Shown here: positions 1-12,554 of the stretch, piece by piece | How the letters are laid out: each line of letters opens with the position of its first letter | Position numbering within the stretch: the first letter of the stretch is position 1 | From: DHVE2 group archaeon | Lineage (GTDB): Archaea > Thermoplasmatota > Thermoplasmata > Thermoplasmatales > Aciduliprofundaceae | DNA length: 64,000 nt | Direction of reading: 5' to 3' | Assembly (NCBI GenBank): GCA_026993785.1 | Contig: JALWRZ010000003.1 | Span: 186,001-250,000, forward strand | Program-made: the position numbers and the translations under genes | The notes under the pieces: generated by a model | Told to the model about the DNA's origin: nothing | The model's database searches: none | Seen by the model: the letters and a program-made list of their open reading frames with translations, nothing else

Positions 1-768
1 CTCCAGGGCCGGTATTATGGAGATGAGATTGGCATTGCCGCATCTCTCTCCGTAGCCGTTAATGGTTCCCTGTATATGCGTGACCCCCGCCTCGAAGGCC
101 ATCAGCGAATTCGCCACCGCCAGCTCGGAGTCGTTGTGGGCATGAATACCCAGAGGCACGTAAATCTCATTTTTAACCTCTTTCACTATTTTCCCAATTT
201 TAGAGGGGAGAGTTCCGCCATTGGTATCCGCTAGAACGATTCTATCGGCGCCACTTCTCTCTGCGGCCTTTATGGTTCTTATCGCGTATTCTCTATTGCT
301 TCTGTAGCCATCGAAGAAGTGCTCCGCATCGTAAATCACAAATAAGCCATGCTCTTTCAGATACTCCACACTATCCTCTATCATCCTAAGGTTCTCCTCC
401 AGCGAGGTTTTGAGGGCTCTTGTCACATGGAGGTCCCATGTCTTGCCGAAGATCGTCGCCACGGGGACATCTGCCTCAACTATATAATTGAGACTGAAAT
501 CCCTCTCTGCCTTTATATCCGGTCTCCTTGTGCTTCCAAAGGCAGCTATCTTCGCATGAGTTATAGAGAGCTCTTTCACCCTACGGAAATACTCAAGGTC
601 CTTGGGATTGGAACCGGGCCATCCACCTTCTATATAATCTATGCCGAATTCATCCAGCTTCTCGGTGATGCGAAGTTTATCCTCCAGGGAAAATGAGATT
701 CCTTCCATCTGCGCACCATCTCGAAGCGTGGTGTCAAAGAGTTCGATATTAGAACCAGACAACGTCAT
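1..768 (-). CDS. cimA: (R)-citramalate synthase, 5' part (runs off left edge)
   Basis: Condenses pyruvate with acetyl-CoA to citramalate, the threonine-independent entry to isoleucine. The visible N-terminal ~255 residues carry the LeuA/CimA TIM-barrel signature [10 protein letters not shown] near the start, [12 protein letters not shown], the metal-binding HAHNDSELA and [18 protein letters not shown] rather than GEQ, and GGWPGSN, fit the CimA (TIGR00977) branch better than isopropylmalate synthase. It is the last gene seen of the ilv-leu operon and overlaps the end of leuB. An ATG at 768 and an in-frame TTG at 762 are both possible; the full Shine-Dalgarno GGAGGTGAT sits just upstream and is better spaced for the TTG. 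The C-terminal half and stop lie outside the window. Confidence 0.9.
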
Positions 769-1813
769 CACCTCCCAGGAAATTTATGAGCCATTGACCA
801 ACCTGCTGGGTGCTTAACCTTCCGCCCATATCTGGTGTTACATGGCCTCCACGCACTGCCGATTCCACGGCAACCTCTATTTCTTTTGCCTCCTTCTTGA
901 ATCCCAGGAAATCCAGAAGCATGGAGCCTGCCAGAATCGTGGCTAAGGGATTTGCGATGCCCTTTCCCGCTATATCCGGAGCAGAACCGTGCACGGGCTC
1001 AAACATGCTTAGTCCATCGGGATTGATGTTCCCCGAGGCGGCAAGGCCCAGGCCACCCACAAGCTCTGCGGTGAGATCCGTTAGTATATCTCCAAATAGA
1101 TTGGGCGTGACGATCACATCAAATTTCTCGGGGCTGCGCACGAGTTTCATAGCCACGGCATCCACATATTCATGCTTTTTCTTTATCTCAGGATATCTCT
1201 CGCCCATCTTCTTAAATACCCTCTGCCAGAGGTCATGGGCGTAGGTAAGCACATTGCTCTTATCGCACAGGGTCACGCTTTTTCGCCCGTGGCCGCGCGC
1301 GTATTCAAAGGCATACCTTATTATTCTTTCCACCCCGCGATATGTGTTAATCATTTCCTGAACTGCGACTTCCCGTGGTGTATTTTTGTAGAGAAATCCT
1401 CCAGAACCGCAATACAGGCCCTCTGCGTTCTCCCGGATAAACACCAGGTTGATGTCCCCCGTCTCCCTATTCTTTAGAGGTGTGAATCTCTCATCTATGA
1501 GCTTGGCAGGCCTGAGATTCACATACATGTCGAAATGGAAGCGCAGTCTTAGAAGTATGCCCCTCTCCAAAATTCCCGGCTTCACCCGAGGATCCCCTAC
1601 TGCGCCCAGAAATATGGCATCGAAGTCGGAAAGGGTATCAAGGGCATCTTCGTCCAGTGTTATCCCTGTTTTCAGATAGTATTCTCCACCGTAGGGAAAC
1701 ACCTGGAACTCGATGGGAAGTTGCAGAGATTCAAGTACCCCAAGCGCCACAGGTATAATCTCTCTGCCTATCCCATCACCGGGTATTACGGCTACCTTTT
1801 TCACGGTTGTCAC
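749..1813 (-). CDS. leuB: 3-isopropylmalate dehydrogenase
   Basis: Oxidatively decarboxylates 3-isopropylmalate (and probably 3-methylmalate from the citramalate route) with NAD. The 354-residue protein has the beta-decarboxylating dehydrogenase features: [10 protein letters not shown] at the N-terminus, [19 protein letters not shown], and the metal/substrate segment [12 protein letters not shown] followed by [10 protein letters not shown] and [14 protein letters not shown]. Length is normal for the family. Its start overlaps the 3' end of leuD by 38 nt, the longest overlap in this operon, so translational coupling is likely. Together with CimA and LeuCD it supplies both the leucine and isoleucine branches. 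Confidence 0.93.
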
Positions 1814-2303
1814 CTCTCAACCTTCTCTTTGTGTATTCCACCAGCCCACCGGCACGGAGGATTTCCATAAGGAAGGGCGGAAATGCCTTGAATCGAAAAC
1901 TTTCTCCGCTACTCAAATTCCTTATCTCCCCATTCTCCAGGTCTATTTCCAGAATATCGCCACTTTTTATCCTCTCCACCGCCTCTGGAGCCTCGATTAT
2001 TGGCAACCCAATGTTAATAGCATTTCTGTAAAATATTCTGGCAAAGCTCTTGGCTACAACGCATCCTACACCCGAGGCCTTTATAGCTATGGGGGCATGC
2101 TCCCTCGAGCTTCCACATCCAAAGTTATGACCCGCCACAATTATATCGCCTTTCTCCATCTTGCTCCTGAACTCAGGGTCAAGGTCCTCAAGCACATGCA
2201 GGGCCAGCTCCTCAGGCTGCGAAGTATTTAGATATCTTGCGGGTATTATCACATCAGTATCCACATTATCCCCGTATTTCCAAGCGCGACCTCTGAGGAT
2301 CAT
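1776..2303 (-). CDS. leuD: isopropylmalate isomerase small subunit
   Basis: Small swivelling subunit of the heterodimeric aconitase-like isomerase acting on isopropylmalate and citramalate. The 175 residues show the family pattern: [14 protein letters not shown] near the N-terminus, [14 protein letters not shown] (substrate-binding loop), and [18 protein letters not shown]. The ATG overlaps the leuC stop as ATGA (4 nt). The last ~13 residues, basic and rich in Arg/Gly, are encoded in the region overlapping leuB and may be a late extension of the reading frame. Confidence 0.92.
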
Positions 2304-3568
2304 GAGCGCATCACCTCCTCAGGATGGGCAATTCTTCCCATTACCGCTGATGCGGCTGCCACAGCGGGATTTGCAAGATAAACCTCGCTCTTGGGATGCC
2401 CCATCCTTCCAACGAAGTTGCGATTTGTCGTAGCTATCGTCCTCTCCCCTGCCGCCAGTATCCCAAGATGCCCTCCCAGGCAGGGACCGCAGCTGGGTGG
2501 ACCTATCACCGCTCCCGCCGATATCAGGGTTTCAAGAACGCCATTCTTTAAAGCTCTAAGATACACGCTGGGAGAACAGGGCAGAACTATGAGACGAACA
2601 TGCTCTGCAACCTCTCTTCCCTGGAGAACTTCCGCAGCAGTTTTGAGGTCCTCGTATCTTCCATTGGTGCAGGAGCCGATGAAAACCTGATTTATCTTTA
2701 TGTTCATTCTTGCCGCATTCCTTGCCTCCTTCACGTTGCTGGGAAGATGCGGAAAAGCTACAAGGGGCTCAATTTTCTCGACCTTATATTTTTTCACCTT
2801 TCTATAGTTGGCATTATCATCTGCTTCCATCACTTGGTAGTTCCTCTTTGCCCTTTCTTTCACGTACTCTATGGTCTTCTCATCCACCGGCATAAGGCCT
2901 GCCTTTGCTCCTGCTTCTATGGCCATGTTGCTCATGGTGAATCTGTCAGACATGGGGAGCGAGGATATGGCATCCCCGTGGAACTCCATGGCCATATACA
3001 GGGCACCACTCACGCCTATGTCTCCTATGGTATGAAGAATCAGGTCCTTCCCCATTACCCAGGGGTCCCTCTCTCCTTCATAGATAAGCTTCAGAGTTTC
3101 TGGAACGCGGAGCCAAACATCGCCGGTGGCCATGGCAACTCCTGCATCCGTGCTTCCCACTCCCGTTGCAAAAGCGCCCAGGGCTCCATAGGTGCAGGTA
3201 TGGGAATCCGCGCCTATTACAAGATCCCCTGGAAGCACGAGCCCGAGCTCGGGAAGTAGACAGTGCTCCACACCCACCTTTCCGCCCTCAAAGAAATATG
3301 GCAATTTTTTCTCTTCAGCGAATTCCCTCGAAAATTTGCATTGTTCTGCTGCCTTTATGTCCTTATTTGGGGTGAAGTGGTCAAGAATTATGGCGACCCT
3401 GCTCTTATCGAAGATTTTGGCGTCCAACTCTCTGAAGACCTTTATGGATATCGGTGCTGTTATATCGTTCATGAGCAGAAAATCTACCTTTGCTTGGATG
3501 AAATCTCCCGCCCTGACCTTTCTACCGGCTTTCTCGCTCAAAATCTTCTCACTTAGGGTCAAACCCAT
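2300..3568 (-). CDS. leuC: isopropylmalate isomerase large subunit
   Basis: Large 4Fe-4S subunit of isopropylmalate/citramalate isomerase. In 422 residues it carries [32 protein letters not shown] and [13 protein letters not shown]; the cysteines in the last two motifs ligate the cluster. The length matches the archaeal/bacterial stand-alone LeuC type rather than the longer fused fungal type. It overlaps leuA by 20 nt and leuD by 4 nt. Other aconitase-family isomerases, such as homoaconitase, are close in sequence, but the leuA/leuB context supports LeuC. Confidence 0.92.
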
Positions 3569-5054
3569 GGTTTACCACCTCTGAGAGGGCTTGGTTTATG
3601 GCGTTGGCATAGGCAAATAAACTCGCTTCAAGAATGTCTGTGCTCACGCCCCTTCCCATATAAATTCTGTCCCCGAATTTTACCCGAACTACAGCTTCTC
3701 CAAGGGCATCCCTTCCTTCCGTGATGCCGTAGATCCTGTAATCCACAAGCTGAGCGTTCACGCCAAGTAGTGAGTTTATCGCCTGATAGAGGGCATCCAC
3801 CGGGCCATTGAAGGAGTGGGTCACCTCCACCTTTCCTCCATGTCTTACGCTCACCGTGGAGCTTCCGTGAACAATCTGAACCATTTCCATGGAGAAATCC
3901 TGGTTCCTCCCAAATCCATCTTCCAGGAGCGCAAGCAGGTCCAGGTCGCTTACAACCTTTTTCTTCTCTGTCAGAGACTTGAAGGCATCGAAAATTCTGT
4001 CGAGCTTATCTTCGCTTACCTCATAGCCGAGCTCTCGAAGTTTGTCCCGCAGCGCATGGCGACCTGAGTGCTTGCCCAGAACAATATGCGTAGTTGCACC
4101 TATTTTATGCGGGTCCATGATCTCATAGGTGCTTCTCTCCTTTAGCACGCCATCCTGATGTATTCCCGACTCATGGGTGAAGGCGTTAGCGCCCACAATG
4201 GCCTTGTTTGGTGGGACCATTATGCCTGTGTAGTAGGAAACGAGCCAGCTGGTTCGAGCGATTTCCCTGAGATTCACAGAAGTCTTTGCTTGGTAAAAAT
4301 CTCTTCTTGTGTCCAGGGCCATTACCACCTCTTCCAGCGCGGCGTTTCCGGCTCTCTCCCCTATGCCATTCACCGTAACCTCCACCTGATCAACGCCCGC
4401 TTTCACCGCCGCCAGAGAATTGGCCACCGCTAGCCCGAGATCATCATGGCAATGAGCGCTCAGCTCAACGGAATTGATGCCTCTTACATTCTTCTTTAAA
4501 TACTCTATGAGCCCGGCAAATTCTTCGGGGGTGGCATAGCCCACGGTATCCGGTATGTTAAGCACAGTGGCACCGGCGTCTATGACCTCCTCTGCAAGCT
4601 CCACTATGAAATCCCTATTGCTCCGAGTAGCGTCTTCAAAGGAGAACTCCACATCATCCACGAATTTTGCAGCTAGGGACACTGCTTCCACTGCCAGATT
4701 CTTTACTTCCTCCGGACTCTTCTTAAGCTTGTGCTTCATATGTATGGGCGATGTGGCTATGAAGGTGTGAATCCTTCGTTTTTCCGCATTTTCAAGCGAT
4801 TTGGCGGCAATTTCTATATCCTCCTTTTTGGCCCTGGCAAGAGCCGCAATCCTCGGACCCTTTACTTCCGTGGCAATTTTCTGCACCGCCTTCATCTCAC
4901 TCTTAGCCGCAGCAGGAAAACCGGCCTCTATGATATCCACACCGAGTCTTGCAAGCTGCCTGGCTATGCTTAATTTCTCCTCCGGATGGAGATTCACACC
5001 CGGAGTTTGCTCACCATCCCGGAGTGTGGTCTCAAATATTGCAATTTTTCGCAT
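3549..5054 (-). CDS. leuA: 2-isopropylmalate synthase
   Basis: First committed step of leucine synthesis, condensing 2-oxoisovalerate with acetyl-CoA. The 501-residue protein has the barrel signature FETTLRDGEQTPGVNL, IEAGFPAA, AHCHDDLGLAVANSLAAV and VNGIGERAGNAALEE, then a C-terminal LeuA dimer/allosteric domain from about residue 375, where leucine usually feeds back. The start at 5054 (MRKIAIFETTLRDG) begins 2 nt after the ilvC stop and fits family N-termini; the frame is open upstream but would overlap ilvC by over 120 nt with non-family sequence. A homocitrate or second citramalate synthase is less likely given the operon. Confidence 0.92.
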   Translation of the reverse strand: MRKIAIFETTLRDGEQTPGVNLHPEEKLSIARQLARLGVDIIEAGFPAAAKSEMKAVQKIATEVKGPRIAALARAKKEDIEIAAKSLENAEKRRIHTFIATSPIHMKHKLKKSPEEVKNLAVEAVSLAAKFVDDVEFSFEDATRSNRDFIVELAEEVIDAGATVLNIPDTVGYATPEEFAGLIEYLKKNVRGINSVELSAHCHDDLGLAVANSLAAVKAGVDQVEVTVNGIGERAGNAALEEVVMALDTRRDFYQAKTSVNLREIARTSWLVSYYTGIMVPPNKAIVGANAFTHESGIHQDGVLKERSTYEIMDPHKIGATTHIVLGKHSGRHALRDKLRELGYEVSEDKLDRIFDAFKSLTEKKKVVSDLDLLALLEDGFGRNQDFSMEMVQIVHGSSTVSVRHGGKVEVTHSFNGPVDALYQAINSLLGVNAQLVDYRIYGITEGRDALGEAVVRVKFGDRIYMGRGVSTDILEASLFAYANAINQALSEVVNHGFDPK

Positions 5055-5056
5055 TT

Positions 5057-6043
5057 CTATCCCTTCTCTAACCCTGAAAGTTTTCTTATCTCTCTTCCCA
5101 CCTTCTCCAGAGGATGCTCTTCCACACTCTTCATCATCTCCATGAGCTTCGCACCACCTTCCTGATACTCCCTGAGCCATTCATTTGCGAATTCTCCGCT
5201 TCTCACCTTTTCTGCGGCCATTTTCATATTCTCCTTTACTTGCTCATCCACCACCTTTGGACCTACGGCGAGACCTCCATATTTCGCCGTGTCAGAGACT
5301 GCCCGAAGCATACCTGTGAGTCCCTTCTCGTAAATCAGGTCCATGATGAGCTTGGCTTCGTTGCAGGCCTCGAAATATGCCAGCTCTGGTGGATAGCCAA
5401 GCTCTACCAGAACCTCGAACCCGTATTTTATAAGCTGAATAAGGCCACCTACCAGGACCGTTTGCTCACCTATTAAATCGCTCTCCGTCTCATCCTTGAA
5501 GGTTGTTTCTATCACCCCTGCTCTGGTGGCCCCTATTCCCTTGGCAAGGGCAAGCGCCACATCTTTGGCATTGCCGGAATAATCCTGATGCACCGCAATT
5601 AGCGCAGGAGCACCGAAACCTTCCAGGAATTTTTCCCTGACCCTGGGACCCGGGCTCTTGGGGGCGACCATGATAACATCCACATTCTCTGGTGGTTTTA
5701 TCAGGCCAAAATGGATATTGAATCCATGGGCAAAGTCAAGAACCGCGCCCTCTTTCAGATTATTTTTGATGCTCTTTTCATAAACCTGGGGTTGTGCCAT
5801 ATCCGGTATGAGGAGCATGATCACATCGCTCATTTTCACCGCTTCATCCACTGGATAAACGTCGAAGCCCTCCTTTGAAGCCATTTCCCAGGAGCGACCT
5901 TTTCTCGCACCAATAACCACATCCATCCCGGAATCTCTGAGATTCAGAGCCTGGGCACGTCCCTGGCTTCCGTAGCCGATCACCGCTATTTTCCTTCCCT
6001 TCAGTACATCCAGCGAGGTATCGGATTCGAAATACATCTTCAT
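5057..6043 (-). CDS. ilvC: ketol-acid reductoisomerase
   Basis: Converts 2-acetolactate or 2-aceto-2-hydroxybutyrate to the dihydroxy acids with NAD(P)H. The 328-residue class I enzyme shows [21 protein letters not shown] (Rossmann fold), [11 protein letters not shown], the Mg-binding [16 protein letters not shown], and the C-terminal knot domain with [16 protein letters not shown]. Its ATG overlaps the ilvN stop by 4 nt. The following IlvD and IlvE steps are not encoded in the window. Confidence 0.94.
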
Positions 6044-6342
6044 CTTCGCACCTCCATTTTAGGATGCATAAGAGGCGATGGCACCACCATCTCCGGCATT
6101 GTCTGGGGCAGAGGATATAGCTGTGCGGAGAGTACCCCGATGATGGTGTTGAGCTTTCTCAGAACCAGATCGCAATCGCTTTCCGGGCATTCAACCACGG
6201 CCGTAAGTTCCCAGAAATCTTCGTTTAAGCTCTTCACCCTGAGATTTTCCAGGGTGGGATATCTCTTCCGCAGCACAGAAAGCACTCTATAGAGGATATC
6301 CAAATTCCTCTCGCACTCCACAACTATCATGCTCCTCTTCAT
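6040..6342 (-). CDS. ilvN: acetolactate synthase small subunit, ACT-only
   Basis: Regulatory subunit of acetohydroxyacid synthase, expected to bind valine and stimulate IlvB. It is only 100 residues against about 160 in the usual IlvN/IlvH: an ACT-like domain (residues ~3-75) followed by a short Pro/Met-rich tail, with no second domain. Identification rests on the ACT-like strand/helix pattern and its position, overlapping ilvB and ilvC by 4 nt each. Feedback behaviour may differ from the two-domain type. Confidence 0.8.
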
Positions 6343-8030
6343 TTTTCAATCACCTCGTGCAATCCTTTGCCCGGAGGCACAAAGGGCAGAACATCCTCCT
6401 CCGGGTGTATTGGCACATCCATAACCATACTTACCTCAGAGCCCAGAGCCTCTTTGATGGCTTTCCTGAGCTCTTCCAAAGAAGATATGTGCTCGCCCTC
6501 GGCACCGTAGGCCCTGGCAAGCCTCACAAAATCAGGAACGTTTTCCATCTCTACGCCTATGTATCTATACTCATAGAACATCCGCTGCCACTGTGCCACC
6601 ATACCAAGCATGTTGTTGTTCAGCACAACAACGGTCACAGGTATGTCCTCCAGTACCGTGGTGGCCAGCTCCTTCTCGTTCATTTTGAAACTTCCATCTC
6701 CTGCTATGTCTATCACAAATCTCTCGGGTCTGGCAACCTTGGCTCCGATGGCCATGGGAAATCCGGAGCCCATGGTGCCAAGACCGCCAGAGCTGAGGAA
6801 TGTGCCTGGCTCGTAGATATCGAAGTAGAGAGAAGCCCACATCTGATTCTGTCCCACCTCGGTGGCAGCTATTGTGTCCCTGGGAACCAATTTCCGGAGC
6901 TCTCTCAGAACATTTTTCGCCGTTAATCCCTGCTGCTCCCTCTCCTCCCGAAGTAACTCGGTCATCTGCCTGTATTTCTTTACCCATTTCCATCTCTCCG
7001 GCTTTTTCGCGAGGAGTTCCTTGAGAGCCTCGTAGAGCATGGAAAGCGCAGTTTTTGCATCTCCCGCGATGCCAACATCAATGCCCACATTCTTTCCTAT
7101 CTCGCTTCTGTCAATGTCTATGTGTATTATCTTTGCATCCCTTGCAAAGGTATCCAGGGTGCCCACGCTTCTATCGCTGAACCTTGTGCCCACCGCAAGG
7201 ATAAGATCCACATCACCCATTATTCTGTTGGCCGCAGAGCTTCCATGCATCCCTATTACTCCAAGAGATAGAGGATGGTCCTCGGGTATGGCCCCCTTAC
7301 CCATAAAGGTGGTGACCACAGGAATGACTAGGGATTCTGCGATTCTGAGAAGCTCCCCTGCTGCTCTTCCCCACACCACTCCTCCACCTGCCAGTATCAC
7401 AGGCTTTTTTGCCTCTAAAAGAAGTTTGGCTGCACGTACCACGTCAAATTCCTTGGGTACAGGGAGTGGCTTAAGGGAAACCAGTATGCGGGGCTCTCGC
7501 ATCTCATCTTCTCCAACCTGCGCATCCTTGGGGAAATCTATGTGCACGGGCCCGGGTCTTCCGTGGGTTGCAAGAAGGAACGCTGTTCTCACAACACTGG
7601 GCACCTCGCCTGCTCTTTTTGGCTGAAACGTGTATTTGGTTATGGGAGTCATCAATCCCACTGCGTCTATCTCCTGAAAGGCATCTCTCCCTATCATGTA
7701 CGGGGTGTTGGGCGAGTAGTAGTTCACCTGCCCTGTGACCGCAACTACAGGAGAGGAATCCATGTAAGCGGTGGCAATTCCCGTCACCATATTAGTTGCA
7801 CCGGGACCTGAGGTGCCCATGCACACACCAGGCTTGCCAAGAACCCTCGCGTATCCATCCGCGGCGTGGGCAGCACCCTGCTCATGGCTCATCCTTATGG
7901 GTCTTATATCCGAATCCAAGAACTCATCGTACACAGGCATTATGGCTCCGCCTATCACTCCGAACACTCGTTTTACTCCTTCCTCCTCGAGTGCCTTTAC
8001 CAGTGCTTTTGCTCCTGACATTTTTGCCAT
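6339..8030 (-). CDS. ilvB: acetolactate synthase large subunit
   Basis: Thiamine-diphosphate enzyme making 2-acetolactate and 2-aceto-2-hydroxybutyrate. The 563 residues include the catalytic-Glu segment MSHEQGAAHAADGYAR, GTSGPGATNMVTGIATAY, the central FAD/transhydrogenase-like domain, and the ThDP motif AGDGSFKMNEKELATT ending with VVLNNN. The ATG at 8030 follows GGAGGU with a 7-nt spacer; an in-frame ATG three codons later is a weaker alternative. An upstream AUG between the SD and this start is out of frame. It is the first structural gene of the operon, and the leader before it looks like an attenuator. Confidence 0.94.
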   Translation of the reverse strand: MAKMSGAKALVKALEEEGVKRVFGVIGGAIMPVYDEFLDSDIRPIRMSHEQGAAHAADGYARVLGKPGVCMGTSGPGATNMVTGIATAYMDSSPVVAVTGQVNYYSPNTPYMIGRDAFQEIDAVGLMTPITKYTFQPKRAGEVPSVVRTAFLLATHGRPGPVHIDFPKDAQVGEDEMREPRILVSLKPLPVPKEFDVVRAAKLLLEAKKPVILAGGGVVWGRAAGELLRIAESLVIPVVTTFMGKGAIPEDHPLSLGVIGMHGSSAANRIMGDVDLILAVGTRFSDRSVGTLDTFARDAKIIHIDIDRSEIGKNVGIDVGIAGDAKTALSMLYEALKELLAKKPERWKWVKKYRQMTELLREEREQQGLTAKNVLRELRKLVPRDTIAATEVGQNQMWASLYFDIYEPGTFLSSGGLGTMGSGFPMAIGAKVARPERFVIDIAGDGSFKMNEKELATTVLEDIPVTVVVLNNNMLGMVAQWQRMFYEYRYIGVEMENVPDFVRLARAYGAEGEHISSLEELRKAIKEALGSEVSMVMDVPIHPEEDVLPFVPPGKGLHEVIEK

Positions 8031-8041
8031 TTTGCATACCT

Positions 8042-8054
8042 CCCCTCAAGGGAG
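8042..8054 (-). promoter_or_regulatory. hairpin over the ilvB ribosome-binding site
   Basis: On the transcript, CUCCC-UUGA-GGGGAG forms a short stem whose 3' arm is the Shine-Dalgarno GGGGAGG of ilvB. It could limit initiation unless opened, for example by an approaching polymerase-coupled ribosome. The pairing is visible in the sequence; the effect is inferred. Confidence 0.45.
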
Positions 8055-8066
8055 ACAAAGGCAAGG

Positions 8067-8105
8067 AAAAAAGAACCCCCCACCAGAAGGATGAGGGGCT
8101 GGGGG
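8067..8105 (-). terminator. candidate attenuator terminator before ilvB
   Basis: Transcript CCCCCAGCC ... GGUGGGGGG forms a strong GC stem (five C-G pairs, one mismatch, a G-U and two more C-G pairs) with a 12-nt loop, followed at once by UUCUUUUUU. It lies between the leader ORF stop and ilvB, where an attenuator terminator would sit. Archaeal polymerase terminates at U-runs even without a stem, so the U-run is compatible with termination. A second C6 block just after the leader stop (8128-8133) could compete for the same G-run and act as an antiterminator. Confidence 0.6.
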
Positions 8106-8137
8106 AGAAGAAGAGGGGCCTATGTTTGGGGGGATAT

Positions 8138-8242
8138 TTACTGGACAATAATAATCAACAAAATAACGAGGACTGAAAGAAGAAGGTGCCCAGCGAACAG
8201 GGCATTTGTGAGTTCTCTCTCAGGATTTTTTTGATTTTCCAT
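8138..8242 (-). CDS. putative branched-chain leader peptide (34 aa)
   Basis: Small ORF beginning MENQKNPERELTNALFAGH and continuing LLLSVLVILLIIIV before a final Gln and stop. Of the 14 codons at positions 20-33, six are Leu, four Ile and three Val, with one Ser: exactly the three end products of the downstream operon. The ATG is about 20 nt downstream of the predicted transcription start and is preceded by a GGGGGAU Shine-Dalgarno-like run. The layout (promoter, Leu/Ile/Val-rich peptide, GC hairpin with U-run, ilvB) matches bacterial ilv/leu attenuators. The hydrophobic run could instead be a transmembrane helix of a small membrane protein; the position and the hairpin favour a leader. Too short for ordinary gene calling. 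Confidence 0.65.
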   Translation of the reverse strand: MENQKNPERELTNALFAGHLLLSVLVILLIIIVQ

Positions 8243-8285
8243 GCCTTTTATCCCCCTTGGGTTGATGGGGCTTATGTTATAAAAC

Positions 8286-8303
8286 CTATAAATAGCTTTC
8301 GCC
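8286..8303 (-). promoter_or_regulatory. BRE/TATA promoter of the ilv-leu operon
   Basis: Read on the minus strand, GGCGAAAG (BRE) is followed by CTATTTATAG (TATA). Initiation about 25 bp downstream would fall near 8265, leaving a ~235-nt leader before ilvB that contains the 34-codon ORF and the terminator. Confidence 0.65.
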
Positions 8304-8342
8304 AGAAATTTCGGGCTTTTTTTTTCAAGAAAGCATGAAAAG

Positions 8343-8822
8343 TTAAAACTCTCTTTCCCTCTTCTCCAAAAACCTCTTCAACATCTCCGCCTTTTCGATC
8401 CTCCCCAGCTTGAGGTAGGCCTGATACTCATACTCTAAATCCAGAACTGGAATTCTCATGCCTTCAATCTCCACAAAGTGCCTGTATCTTTTTATATCCA
8501 CTGGCGTTTCCCACTGGTTCCCGACCTTCTTCTGGATATCACCCATTATCTCGACCTCAATTCCATCAATCCTCAACGCCCCGAAGTGCGAGCGAATTCT
8601 CTCACTTTCCTTAAATTTCACGGGCTCAATCACACACCGGGAAAAGAGACGCTGGATTTCATAGGCTCCCTCCCTGTCTGTCTGGATGTCAATATCATGC
8701 GGCTCAACGGGAACACCCTGGAGGGCAAAGCCAAGGCTCCCGGTAACAACCCAATTCACATCGCTACCCTTTAGCCGCTCGTACAGCATGTGGAGAACTT
8801 TGAGGTGGGTTTGGGGAATCAT
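8343..8822 (-). CDS. solitary nucleotidyltransferase-fold protein
   Basis: 159-residue protein of the DNA polymerase beta-like nucleotidyltransferase superfamily (AbiEii/MNT-like group). Visible are the GS motif VVTGSLGFALQG (about residues 26-37), the metal-binding HDIDIQ (about 42-47) and a possible third carboxylate in GIEVEIMGD. No HEPN partner or antitoxin gene is adjacent, so it is not an obvious HEPN/MNT or AbiE pair. It has its own TATA (8853-8861) and an SD GAGGTG before the ATG. It reads toward the ilv promoter, about 40 bp from the TATA of that operon. Substrate unknown. Confidence 0.7.
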   Translation of the reverse strand: MIPQTHLKVLHMLYERLKGSDVNWVVTGSLGFALQGVPVEPHDIDIQTDREGAYEIQRLFSRCVIEPVKFKESERIRSHFGALRIDGIEVEIMGDIQKKVGNQWETPVDIKRYRHFVEIEGMRIPVLDLEYEYQAYLKLGRIEKAEMLKRFLEKREREF

Positions 8823-8960
8823 CTCAGCACCTCAAAGAGATTATAGATTAAGCATATAAAAGCCTTGATATTCTCCAGATGTCCTTGTTCTTGCCTCCAC
8901 AAAAACAAAAAGAAGCGGGAAATGGCCAAGAAATCATCATAGATTCAAAGAAGGGAGAAC

Positions 8961-8974
8961 GAAGATTATAAATA
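8961..8974 (+). promoter_or_regulatory. BRE/TATA promoter of rpl15e
   Basis: CGAAGA followed by TTATAAATA. The expected start near 8995 lies downstream of the first ATG of the frame (8985), which supports 9036 as the L15e initiator. Confidence 0.6.
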
Positions 8975-9035
8975 CCAAAGGAACATGAGGCCTCAGGGAG
9001 ATGTCCCGACAGGGGAATCCCAAGGAGGATTTGGT

Positions 9036-9635
9036 ATGTACAAGCTTCCTGAGAGAAGAGCTGTAAATATGTACGGATACGTTAAGAATGCCTGGAAGGA
9101 GAAGAAGACCACATATATTCGCGATATTCAATGGGCTCGAATGATCCAGTGGAGAAGAGAGGGTGCCATTGTTAGGGTTGAAAGACCCACCAGAATAGAT
9201 AGGGCCAGAGAACTGGGTTACAGGGCCAAGCAGGGATTCATCGTGGTCAGGGCTCGGGTAAGAAGGGGCAATCTGCAGCGCCGCAGGATAAAAGGCGGAA
9301 GAAGACCCAAGAGAAGGGGCATGCTTAGGATTCCCATGCGCAAGAGCACACAGAGAATAGCGGAGGAGAGAGTAGCAAGAAAGTATCCCAATATGGAGGT
9401 TCTCAACTCCTACTATGTGGGCGAGGATGGAAAGTACCACTATTACGAAGTAATTCTTGTGGATCCACATCATCCTGCCATATGCAACGATCCTAAGATA
9501 AACTGGATATGCAGTAAAAAGCATAAGGGACGTGCATTCCGTGGTTTAACAAGTGCTGGCAAGAAGGGCCGCGGCCTTAGGAACAAGGGTAAGGGTGCAG
9601 AGAAAGCCAGACCTTCCAGAAGGGCAAATCTCTGA
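9036..9635 (+). CDS. rpl15e: 50S ribosomal protein L15e
   Basis: Archaeal/eukaryotic large-subunit protein. The roughly 200 residues include MYGYVKNAW at the family N-terminus, the very basic [20 protein letters not shown] stretch, and [17 protein letters not shown] with [18 protein letters not shown] near the C-terminus. The start at 9036 has a perfect GGAGGAT spaced by 5 nt; the frame is open to an ATG at 8985, but that lies upstream of the predicted transcription start. A third candidate, ATG 9069, would give the shortest family-like N-terminus. Confidence 0.93.
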
Positions 9636-9718
9636 GTCGCTGTTTTATGGATATTCTTATCCTAAATTTTATCAATTACTATGAGGAAAATTTTAAATGG
9701 GTGAGGCGTTAAAGGTAT

Positions 9719-11068
9719 ATGCTCGATTCCCTTGGCGCATCACTGCGAGATACCATAAGAAAGATAACCAAGGCGGGTTATGTTGATAGGTCCCTTATAA
9801 AAGAGGTTGTTCGTGATATTCAGCGCTCCCTTCTCAAGGGTGATGTTGAGGTTCATCTTGCGTTGCAACTCTCCAAGAATGTGGAGCGTAGGGCACTGGA
9901 GGAAAAGCCCCCTGCGGGTATGAGCTATCGTGATTTTCTGATAAAAATCATCTATGAGGAGCTTGTTGCCATCCTTGGCAAGGAGAAGGAGATACCGCTA
10001 AAGCCCCAGAAGATAATGCTTGTGGGCCTGTACGGGCAGGGCAAAACCACCACGGCGGGTAAACTTGCTAAGTATTTTCACAATAAGGGGTTGAGCGTGG
10101 CTCTAATTGCCTGTGATACCCACAGACCTGCAGCTTATGACCAGCTGAAACAGTTGGGAGAGAAGATAAACATCCCTGTTTTCGGCATACCGGGAGAGAA
10201 GGATGCCAGAAAGATTGCGAGGGAAGCACTCAAAAAGACCAAGGATTTTCAGGTTAGAATCTTCGATACCTCCGGACGCCATGCCTTGGAGGATGATTTG
10301 ATAAGGGAGATGGAAGATCTAAAGAAGATTATTCAGCCGGATGAGATCTTTCTCGTTATAGACGCCACCATCGGGCAGCAGGCGGGCAAGCAGGCAAAGG
10401 CATTTCATGATGCTGTGGGCATCACCGGGGTTATAATTACCAAGATGGATGGCAGCGCCAAGGGAGGCGGTGCCTTAAGCGCCGTGGCCACAACGGGTGC
10501 TCCGGTGGTATTCATAGGCACAGGTGAGCATATAGAGGACCTCGAGCATTTTAATCCAACGCGCTTCATCTCTCGGCTTTTGGGCATGGGAGATTTGGAA
10601 ACCCTTCTTGAGACTGCGAAGCAGCTTGAGATGGAGGAAGAGAAAGCTCAGAAGGTTATGGAGCGAATGATGAGTGGAAAGTTCAATCTCAAGGACATGT
10701 ACGAGGTCTGGGAGCAGATGTCCAAGCCGGGGATTTTGCAGAAAATCCTCTACTCGCTTCCCTTCTTCAAGATGGGTGAGATAGATAAAAATCTTGTGGA
10801 GGAAAGCGAGGAGAAGCTTCGCAGGTATCGTGTAATTCTCGATTCCATGACCTATGAGGAGCTTGAGAATCCTGAGATAATAAAGGGCAGCAGGATAAGG
10901 AGAATAGCCATAGGAAGCGGAAAGGGAGAGCATGAAGTTAGAGCGCTTCTCAAGGAGTATCACAGGATGAAGAAGATGATGAAGGAGATGCGGGGAAACA
11001 GGAAGCTTATGAGGGCGCTGAGAAAGCAGATGAAGGGAGGCAACATAGATCTGCAGGGATTGATATGA
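9719..11068 (+). CDS. srp54: signal recognition particle GTPase SRP54
   Basis: GTPase subunit of SRP that binds 7S RNA and targets signal-bearing ribosomes to the membrane. The 449 residues comprise the N domain (to ~90), G domain with [13 protein letters not shown] (G1), [23 protein letters not shown] (G3), [15 protein letters not shown] (G4), and a Met-rich M domain (from ~300). G1 reads GQGK where GSGK or GVQGSGK is common. Its stop overlaps the trmY start as ATGA, so srp54, trmY and the radical SAM gene form one transcript. Confidence 0.95.
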
Positions 11069-11637
11069 GAGCCTTCTTGGTGGTAGCTCATAAGTTTAGG
11101 GGTGAGGTGAACCTTAACGATCTTCCAGGCTCTGGAAGGATAGACGTGGTGGCAAGATGCATCAATGCCTCCATATTTCTATCCCATACAATTCGACGGG
11201 ATGTTCTTTTCTTTGTCTATTTTCCCAGGATAGGAATGAGGATAAAGATCGACGCCTCTAAGGTGAAATACCTGAACCCAGATGAGCGTAGCACGGCGGC
11301 GCTTATAAGAAATGCGCTGCTTAATTACTCGGAGGATAAGGAGATACGAACTTCGCCAGGATTCTATATTCGCTCTGCCAACCTGGAAGATGTACTGGAA
11401 GAGCTTGTATCTGTAGGAGCACTTTATTATCTACGAGAGGATGGAAAGGACATAAGAAGCGTAGAGCTCGAGAGAAATTCCTCTTTCATCCTGAGCGACA
11501 GTGTGAATATGAGCAATGATGAGGAGAATATGCTCCTTGAGAAAGGCGCAGCTCTAATCTCTGTGGGACCCAAAAGCTTGCTATCCTCCCATGTAATAGC
11601 CATAGTTCATAACGAGCTGGACAGGCGAGGCCTATGA
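11065..11637 (+). CDS. trmY: tRNA (pseudouridine54-N1)-methyltransferase
   Basis: SPOUT-class enzyme that makes 1-methylpseudouridine at tRNA position 54 in archaea. The 190 residues match the family: [11 protein letters not shown] at the start, LNDLPGSGRIDVVARCINASIFLSHTIRRDV in the N-terminal half (motif around 18-48), and the knotted SAM-binding C-terminus with LLEKGAALISVGPKSLLSSH. Overlaps both neighbours by 4 nt. Confidence 0.88.
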   Translation: MRAFLVVAHKFRGEVNLNDLPGSGRIDVVARCINASIFLSHTIRRDVLFFVYFPRIGMRIKIDASKVKYLNPDERSTAALIRNALLNYSEDKEIRTSPGFYIRSANLEDVLEELVSVGALYYLREDGKDIRSVELERNSSFILSDSVNMSNDEENMLLEKGAALISVGPKSLLSSHVIAIVHNELDRRGL

Positions 11638-12554
11638 TCCGCCTATCTTATGGTACCGCGGTTAAGATGGGACTTCGCAGGGGAAAGATGCTGGCTGAGC
11701 CCACCACCGCATATATAATGCTGGGAGAGCGCTGCTATTCTAACTGCTCTTTCTGTGCCCAGGCCAGGAGCCGGAGAAAGGAGGGCTATCTCTCCCGCGT
11801 GCTCTGGCTTCCGTATCCCAAGGAGGTGCTTCGAGAGCTTAAAGGCTTTGCCAGGGTATGCTTTCAGACCCTGGACTATCCGGAGGTACTGGAAGATCTG
11901 CTCTCTCTAATCCCTCTGATTCCAGAGAATATCCCTATCTCGGTTTCCATAGTGCCTCTTAAAAAGGAAGAGATGCAACTTTTGCAGGACAAGATAGATA
12001 CCATAAGCTTTGCCCTAGATGCCGCCAACGAAGAGCTCTTTGACCGGGTTAAGGGCAGAGGAGTGGGCAATCGCTTCACCTGGGAAATGGTATGGAAAGC
12101 TCTAAAGGAGGCTCTAACGATTTTTCCCAACGTTAATACCCATCTCATAGTAGGTCTCGGGGAAAGTGATGAGGACCTTTATCGGGTTATGAAAAAATTG
12201 AGGGATATGCATATATCCGTAGCTCTTTTTTCCTACACACCTCTATTTGGGGGCGATTACCCGGACGTGGGTAGATACAGGGCCGTGCAGGTTATGCGCC
12301 ATCTTCTCTATCGAGGCTATGATGATTTTGCAGTTTTCGAGAATGGCAAGCTCGTAGAAATAAGAGCTCCTAAGAAGGAGGAAGAGGCCTTGGAAAGGGG
12401 ACTGCCCTTCTTAACTTCAGGATGTCCGGGTTGCAATCGACCCTTCTACAACGAGAGACCTGGAGGGACGATTTACAACTACCCCTATCTCCCTAACAGC
12501 GGCAAAATAAAGACAATTTTGGAGCAGCTGAGGAGTTATCTAAGAAAAATTTAA
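11634..12554 (+). CDS. radical SAM protein, biotin-synthase-related (COG2516-like)
   Basis: 306 residues with the radical SAM cluster motif CYSNCSFC (CxxxCxxC, ~residues 37-44), a barrel containing SVSIVPLKKEE and NTHLIVGLGESDEDL, and a conserved C-terminal SGCPGCNRPFYNERPGG that probably binds an auxiliary Fe-S cluster. This architecture resembles archaeal proteins once called biotin synthase-related, some of which are now reported as subunits of an unusual two-protein lipoyl synthase. That role is a guess here: no lipoate-dependent complex is encoded nearby. Last gene of the srp54 cluster. Confidence 0.72.
   Translation: MIRLSYGTAVKMGLRRGKMLAEPTTAYIMLGERCYSNCSFCAQARSRRKEGYLSRVLWLPYPKEVLRELKGFARVCFQTLDYPEVLEDLLSLIPLIPENIPISVSIVPLKKEEMQLLQDKIDTISFALDAANEELFDRVKGRGVGNRFTWEMVWKALKEALTIFPNVNTHLIVGLGESDEDLYRVMKKLRDMHISVALFSYTPLFGGDYPDVGRYRAVQVMRHLLYRGYDDFAVFENGKLVEIRAPKKEEEALERGLPFLTSGCPGCNRPFYNERPGGTIYNYPYLPNSGKIKTILEQLRSYLRKI

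Follow-up and report, generated by a model that had tools for sequence, protein, structure and literature searches.

A leader-peptide sensor, acting in cis as a ribosome-mediated attenuator, very probably controls the archaeal ilv-leu operon found in the window, by which we mean the whole 64,000-nucleotide stretch of DNA analyzed here. This reading is drawn from sequence comparison. In the proposed mechanism, the ribosome would translate a 34-codon leader and would stall within codons 20 to 33 when the supply of charged Leu-, Ile-, or Val-tRNA runs low. The position of the ribosome would then set whether ilvB is expressed, which would place the operon under the control of amino acid supply. 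For the window's genus, premature transcription termination at a U6 tract about 65 nt past the leader stop is most likely part of the output, and we lean toward such termination as the main output. The first-pass annotation had proposed a leader-peptide attenuator in which refolding leads to read-through. Because of the conservation of the ORF within the genus, the Leu/Ile/Val (L/I/V)-rich leaders of six further families, and the leuA leaders of one of them (f8), the leader-peptide attenuator is well supported, whereas the refolding and read-through step is not.

The leader ORF, its promoter, and its operon

The operon runs in the order ilvB-ilvN-ilvC-leuA-leuC-leuD-leuB-cimA-like, and its last gene, which is citramalate/isopropylmalate-synthase-like, is truncated at the window edge. 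Gene order and the TIGR00118 match (Table 1) agree with the first-pass annotation that ilvB heads an ilv-leu operon. The BRE/TATA promoter that had been proposed upstream of the short ORF is also there: the TATA box TATTTATA (8294-8287) is preceded by a BRE-like purine-rich stretch, and both same-genus relatives keep this promoter. From the usual archaeal promoter spacing, transcription is predicted to start at about 8262-8268. The gene upstream of the leader (8346-8822, minus strand), which sits among archaeal housekeeping genes, matches Pfam Aminoglyc_resit (PF10706, aminoglycoside-2''-adenylyltransferase) and is probably a nucleotidyltransferase with another function.

Table 1. Features of the leader region and first gene of the ilv-leu operon, in window coordinates
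Feature	Position	Strand	Observation
Promoter	8287..8301	-	BRE-like purine-rich stretch and TATTTATA; from sequence, kept in both relatives
Element A, CCCAAGGGGGATAAAAGGCA	8242..8261	-	Leader ribosome-binding site through start codon; complementary to B
Leader ORF, 34 codons and TAA	8138..8242	-	Also 34 codons long in G001 and G002; ilvB follows directly in every case
Small hairpin UGCCC-UGUUCGCU-GGGCA inside leader ORF (codons Ala-x-Phe-Ala-Gly)	8187..8204	-	Conserved in three species
L/I/V block, codons 20-33, predicted stall region	8144..8185	-	13/14 Leu/Ile/Val
GC-rich terminator-like hairpin, 11 pairs	8074..8100	-	Stability above 95% of shuffles in 3/3 species
U6 tract, predicted premature 3' end	8067..8072	-	T6 in 3/3 species
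Element B, TGCCTTTGTCTCCCTTGAGG	8044..8063	-	Complement of A; contains CUCCC, also able to pair with the ribosome-binding site of ilvB
ilvB ribosome-binding site GGGGAGG	8039..8045	-	From sequence
ilvB, acetolactate synthase large subunit	6339..8030	-	TIGR00118, 684.8 bits versus cutoff of 538.35; first gene of the operon

Between this promoter and ilvB lies a translatable ORF (8242-8138, minus strand) that encodes MENQKNPERELTNALFAGHLLLSVLVILLIIIVQ and is rich in codons for the regulated amino acids, as expected of an attenuator. Codons 20 to 33 comprise six Leu, four Ile, three Val, and one Ser, exactly as first counted. The window contains 1,052 short ORFs, of which the leader is the richest in L/I/V and the sole one with 11 L/I/V per 12 residues, the runner-up having 9. 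Among the upstream regions of the three genus members, all three scored at least 8 at the place of the leader (scores of 11 to 12), while dinucleotide shuffles would yield about 0.01 in total. Thus, the shuffles and the ranking among short ORFs rule out a chance origin of the L/I/V run.

Our genus sample consisted of the window's own genome (G000) and three further genomes, of which G001 and G002 carry ilvB and G003 does not. The leaders of G001 and G002, MSKSEKFKEYLKNAQFAGRLLLVIIILVILIIVQ and MENSATKSERRHGARFAGQLLLLVIVILLLIIVQ, occupy the corresponding position, are likewise 34 codons long, and are each followed by a C-rich hairpin and T6. The first-pass annotation had held that its reading would suffer if relatives with the same operon lacked an L/I/V-rich ORF there; both ilvB-bearing relatives keep the leader, the hairpin, and U6. 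Over codons 1 to 19, the three species drift freely, with nucleotide differences spread about evenly over the three codon positions. Over codons 20 to 33, merely 2 of the 40 nucleotide differences counted in three species pairs fall at codon position 2; the changes are almost all at positions 1 and 3, where they swap Leu, Ile, and Val. Across the three species, 41 of the 42 residues of this block are L/I/V, and none is Phe or Met. The probability that free drift would retain L/I/V to this extent is at most 0.0004 for the two more diverged pairs. Such a pattern would be expected if selection kept a Leu, Ile, or Val, no matter which, at each place.

RNA elements between the leader and ilvB

Of 14 terminator-like sites found in a 12-kb scan, the hairpin at 8100-8074 followed by CTTTTTT was the strongest, with 11 pairs, which confirmed the earlier call of a GC-rich hairpin and U-run after the leader ORF. 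A hairpin with a U-run between the leader and the first gene was found in 3/3 species of the genus and is mostly missing in other families. The archaeal termination signal consists of U-rich tracts, and a hairpin is not required (PMC7515710).

We folded the leader transcript up to U6 at equilibrium, with a ribosome mask on one of codons 16 to 34 or on the stop codon. For the window sequence, the terminator hairpin was predicted at 0.96 to 1.00 at every ribosome position from codon 16 to the stop, at both 37 and 65°C. For G001, the values were 0.80 to 1.00 whatever the ribosome position. The folding of G002 was ambiguous, with no ribosome effect of the expected kind. Folding under these masks therefore showed no antiterminator competing with the pre-U6 hairpin and no terminator/antiterminator switch in the genus, a result that holds for equilibrium structures. 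With the textbook antiterminator not visible, the earlier step in which stalling changes folding and allows read-through is unsupported and stays inferential. The three genus genomes with ilvB are too few for covariation. In archaea, transcription is coupled to translation, and the polymerase and the termination factor (aCPSF1/FttA) are eukaryote-like. Coupled or cotranscriptional effects, or a block of aCPSF1/FttA at the U-tract, are possible switching steps.

The most conserved noncoding blocks of the region are elements A and B, which form an inverted pair. Element A is identical at 20/20 positions in the three species; its exact copy occurs once per genome, here, in the three ilvB-bearing genomes and is found nowhere in G003. 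Element B lies directly before the ilvB ribosome-binding site. The duplex of A with the downstream region reaches -28.7 to -33.4 kcal/mol in the three species, and 0 to 3 of 1000 shuffles were equally good. When G000 and G002 were folded, the ilvB site was open with A free and masked with A covered; folding of G001 gave no such A-dependent opening or masking. The A:B complementarity is a long-range element, new here, whose helix would join the leader start site to the region of the ilvB ribosome-binding site. The A:B helix may add a translational layer of control, and we hypothesize from the folding that, on read-through RNA, it would act as a clamp that shuts leader translation and opens ilvB.

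Leaders before ilvB and leuA across the class

We scored short ORFs in the regions upstream of ilvB at 90 loci of the class, requiring at least 8 L/I/V per 12 residues and an ORF end 30 to 70 nt before the gene, with dinucleotide shuffles as the null. The threshold was chosen after the window's own leader had been seen, and the shuffle null was scored at the same threshold. In six further families, 43/48 loci had a short L/I/V-rich ORF ending 40 to 55 nt before ilvB (f8, 16/16; f23, 2/2; f24, 13/15; f32, 6/7; f33, 4/6; f34, 2/2), where about 0.2 would be expected (0.00 to 0.07 per family). No leader was found in other families with ilvB (f11, 0/25; f14, 0/6; f27, 0/3; f3, 0/1). Family f6 had one candidate in four loci (L159, genome G202; VSLTASTTELNFSVVGILQIIIGL), with a TATA-like box shortly upstream; the other tested f6 members were without a leader.

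Examples of leaders in the class are MREPAGQGGPMPILVVLGVLVDLRILRP, MQGITTPTSIVSSLLGVVVVLIR, MTTRFDISVISRISAVVIIIS, and, with a GTG start, MSNNSTNAIVVLRLGVVVVI. In a tree of IlvB, the leader-bearing sequences of the window's genus form one clade, those of f8/f23 a second, and those of f24/f32/f33/f34 a third. The leaders may have one ancient origin followed by losses or several origins. The leader ORFs of f24 (L097-L114) have a conserved GTG start about 25 nt past an AT-rich, TATA-like box, a spacing that may indicate translation of a leaderless transcript. At L116 and L119 (f33) and L149 (f34), a second acetolactate synthase copy is preceded by an L/V-rich leader of another kind (MNAALLLVRNSLLVSVQVLVV and similar), which has a separate hairpin at its stop codon.

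RNA structure accompanies the leaders of these families. In f8/f23, a hairpin whose 5' arm holds the leader stop codon was more stable than 95% of shuffles in 18/18 cases, and a second helix pairs the ORF start with the L/I/V end. These two helices covary: 92.8% of cells are paired, compared with 32 to 52% in slid controls, and there are 13 both-side changes where 3.5 would be expected. For a 2:3 helix between the L/I/V end and the stop-codon segment, 92% of cells are paired, but covariation is absent and so the helix is only suggested. Together, the pairings have the 1:2, 2:3, 3:4 topology of classical attenuators, with the 2:3 part suggested. In f24/f32/f33/f34, a hairpin GAGG...CCUC lies a few bases past the leader stop, with stability above that of 95% of shuffles in 25/25 cases. 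Single-sequence folds show this hairpin in all 25, while the RNAalifold consensus over these families recovered it in part because it has two registers; for the same reason, one consensus structure for the four families was rejected. U-runs of at least 6 are rare between the leader and ilvB in the other families, and therefore the output there is probably translational. In no family did the folded structures make the ilvB start consistently more or less accessible when the ribosome was moved from "stalled" to "at stop," and a general model in which stalling opens the ilvB start was discarded because it had no consistent sign across 50 leaders.

The leuA gene of f8 has a leader of its own, of the type MATKSNALLILPLGLLLLA, in 15/16 assessable loci. 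These 15 leuA leaders contain 111 Leu and 1 Val, while the 16 f8 ilvB leaders contain 102 Leu and 69 Val (Fisher p = 4e-17, a value that overstates independence because the sequences are related). Further leuA leaders came from f23 and f24 (MDAKRSSASILPLQLLLLLC, MRHNKMICLLLLLH). The short Leu-rich ORFs before leuA at L194, L195, and L241 (f24) and at L205 (f23) are unlike the f8 type (MSGNIRNQDLLLRLLPISLL, MRHNKMICLLLLLH) and are perhaps independent Leu leaders. As read from these sequences, leader composition tracks the pathway, with Leu, some Ile, and almost no Val before leuA and Val/Ile/Leu before ilvB. Because they use Leu and leave out Val, the leaders of leuA offer a built-in specificity control. 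We found no His-rich leader before hisG in 17 genomes and no convincing Trp-rich leader before trpE in 16 genomes.

Alternative readings and known systems

The same sensor could instead act on the initiation of ilvB translation. B, through its CUCCC, would mask the ilvB site unless leader ribosomes release A and B is taken up in a helix with it, and U6 would be incidental or a minor terminator. We hold this only tentatively. Complementarity of A and B in all three species agrees with it, as do the A-dependent opening and masking in G000 and G002 and the hairpin at the leader stop in other families, most of which have no U-run before ilvB. However, G001 shows no switch, and the hairpin and U6 are kept in 3/3 species. 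Moreover, a stall at codons 20 to 33 would not by itself uncover A, and queued ribosomes would cover it. Control by a DNA- or RNA-binding protein at A/B, with the ORF incidental, would fit the conservation of these blocks as an inverted pair. We give it very little credence, since A has no second perfect match in the four genus genomes, selection clearly acts on the ORF's reading frame, and the leaders of other families are without A and B.

Other readings concern the ORF itself. It might encode a functional single-pass small membrane protein that stands first in the operon by chance, and in the genus a charged N terminus is indeed followed by a C-terminal half of about 15 hydrophobic residues. 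However, the N-terminal sequence is not conserved, and the hydrophobic block swaps Leu, Ile, and Val with no Phe, Met, Ala, or Gly. For the two more diverged pairs, a null built on membrane-helix-like residues gave this retention of L/I/V P values of 0.0016 and 0.004, while the stricter A/F/I/L/M/V/C set gave 0.02 and 0.09. The ORF is also absent wherever ilvB is absent: the peptide had no match among 15 family genomes without ilvB, and its matches in the family lie solely directly before ilvB. Thus, the peptide travels with the operon, and the ilvB-independent membrane protein against which the first-pass annotation had set its reading is not what we found. Many leaders elsewhere in the class hold Asp/Arg within the L/I/V block (e.g., VVLGVLVDLRILRP), which excludes a membrane helix for those leaders. 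We therefore consider a membrane protein highly improbable. It is similarly hard to credit that the short ORF merely boosts ilvB translation by ribosome loading or reinitiation, without amino acid sensing. Bacterial leader genes can raise downstream translation by reinitiation (PMC4833913), but this would leave the L/I/V-only codons, the Leu-only leuA version, the stop-codon hairpins, and the conserved U6 unexplained.

The leader-peptide attenuator has bacterial counterparts. In the enterobacterial trp, his, ilv, and leu attenuators, a leader peptide rich in the regulated amino acids is followed by a terminator hairpin with a U-run. The window shares this arrangement, and the f8/f23 leaders share the competing 1:2, 2:3, 3:4 complementarity; unlike the classical systems, the window has no predicted competing antiterminator, and most other families have no U-run. 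The principle of leader-peptide attenuation is also set out in PMC11857589. In the ilvBNC attenuator of Corynebacterium glutamicum and in similar ilvB leaders of other actinobacteria (PMC11857589, PMC1262725), a short ORF containing Ile/Val/Leu codon runs likewise stands immediately upstream of ilvB in an ilvBNC operon, and a hairpin with poly-U comes after it. The likeness is one of architecture only: the window's leader has an archaeal promoter and transcription machinery, has no Rfam match, lacks a detectable antiterminator, and has the extra long-range A:B element. The f8 leuA leaders resemble the actinobacterial LEU element before leuA (PMC1262725), with a Leu-run peptide, RNA structure, and no obvious terminator. 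However, they occur in archaeal hosts, and their peptide pattern (LLILPLGLLILA) and sequence are unlike it. Rfam leader-RNA families, T-box included, gave no match at curated score in window positions 1-12000 or in 12 related loci.

A 2021 paper stated that no transcription attenuation or antitermination was known in archaea (PMC8448881), and we found no archaeal leader-peptide attenuator in the open-access literature, a scope that leaves out most subscription papers and all preprints. Our data point to a supply-sensing, ribosome-stalling switch of a kind known in bacteria and, within the open literature, unreported in archaea. We consider it likely that leader-peptide attenuation is widespread in one archaeal class, with amino acids matched to the gene and at least three RNA architectures in three IlvB clades: the window's genus would use the U6 terminator with the long-range A:B helix, and the other clades two designs with a hairpin at the stop, both probably translational. 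If true, this would be the first ribosome-mediated leader-peptide attenuation in archaea. With this locus and its relatives, one can test directly whether termination in an archaeal system is open to control by a stalled ribosome.
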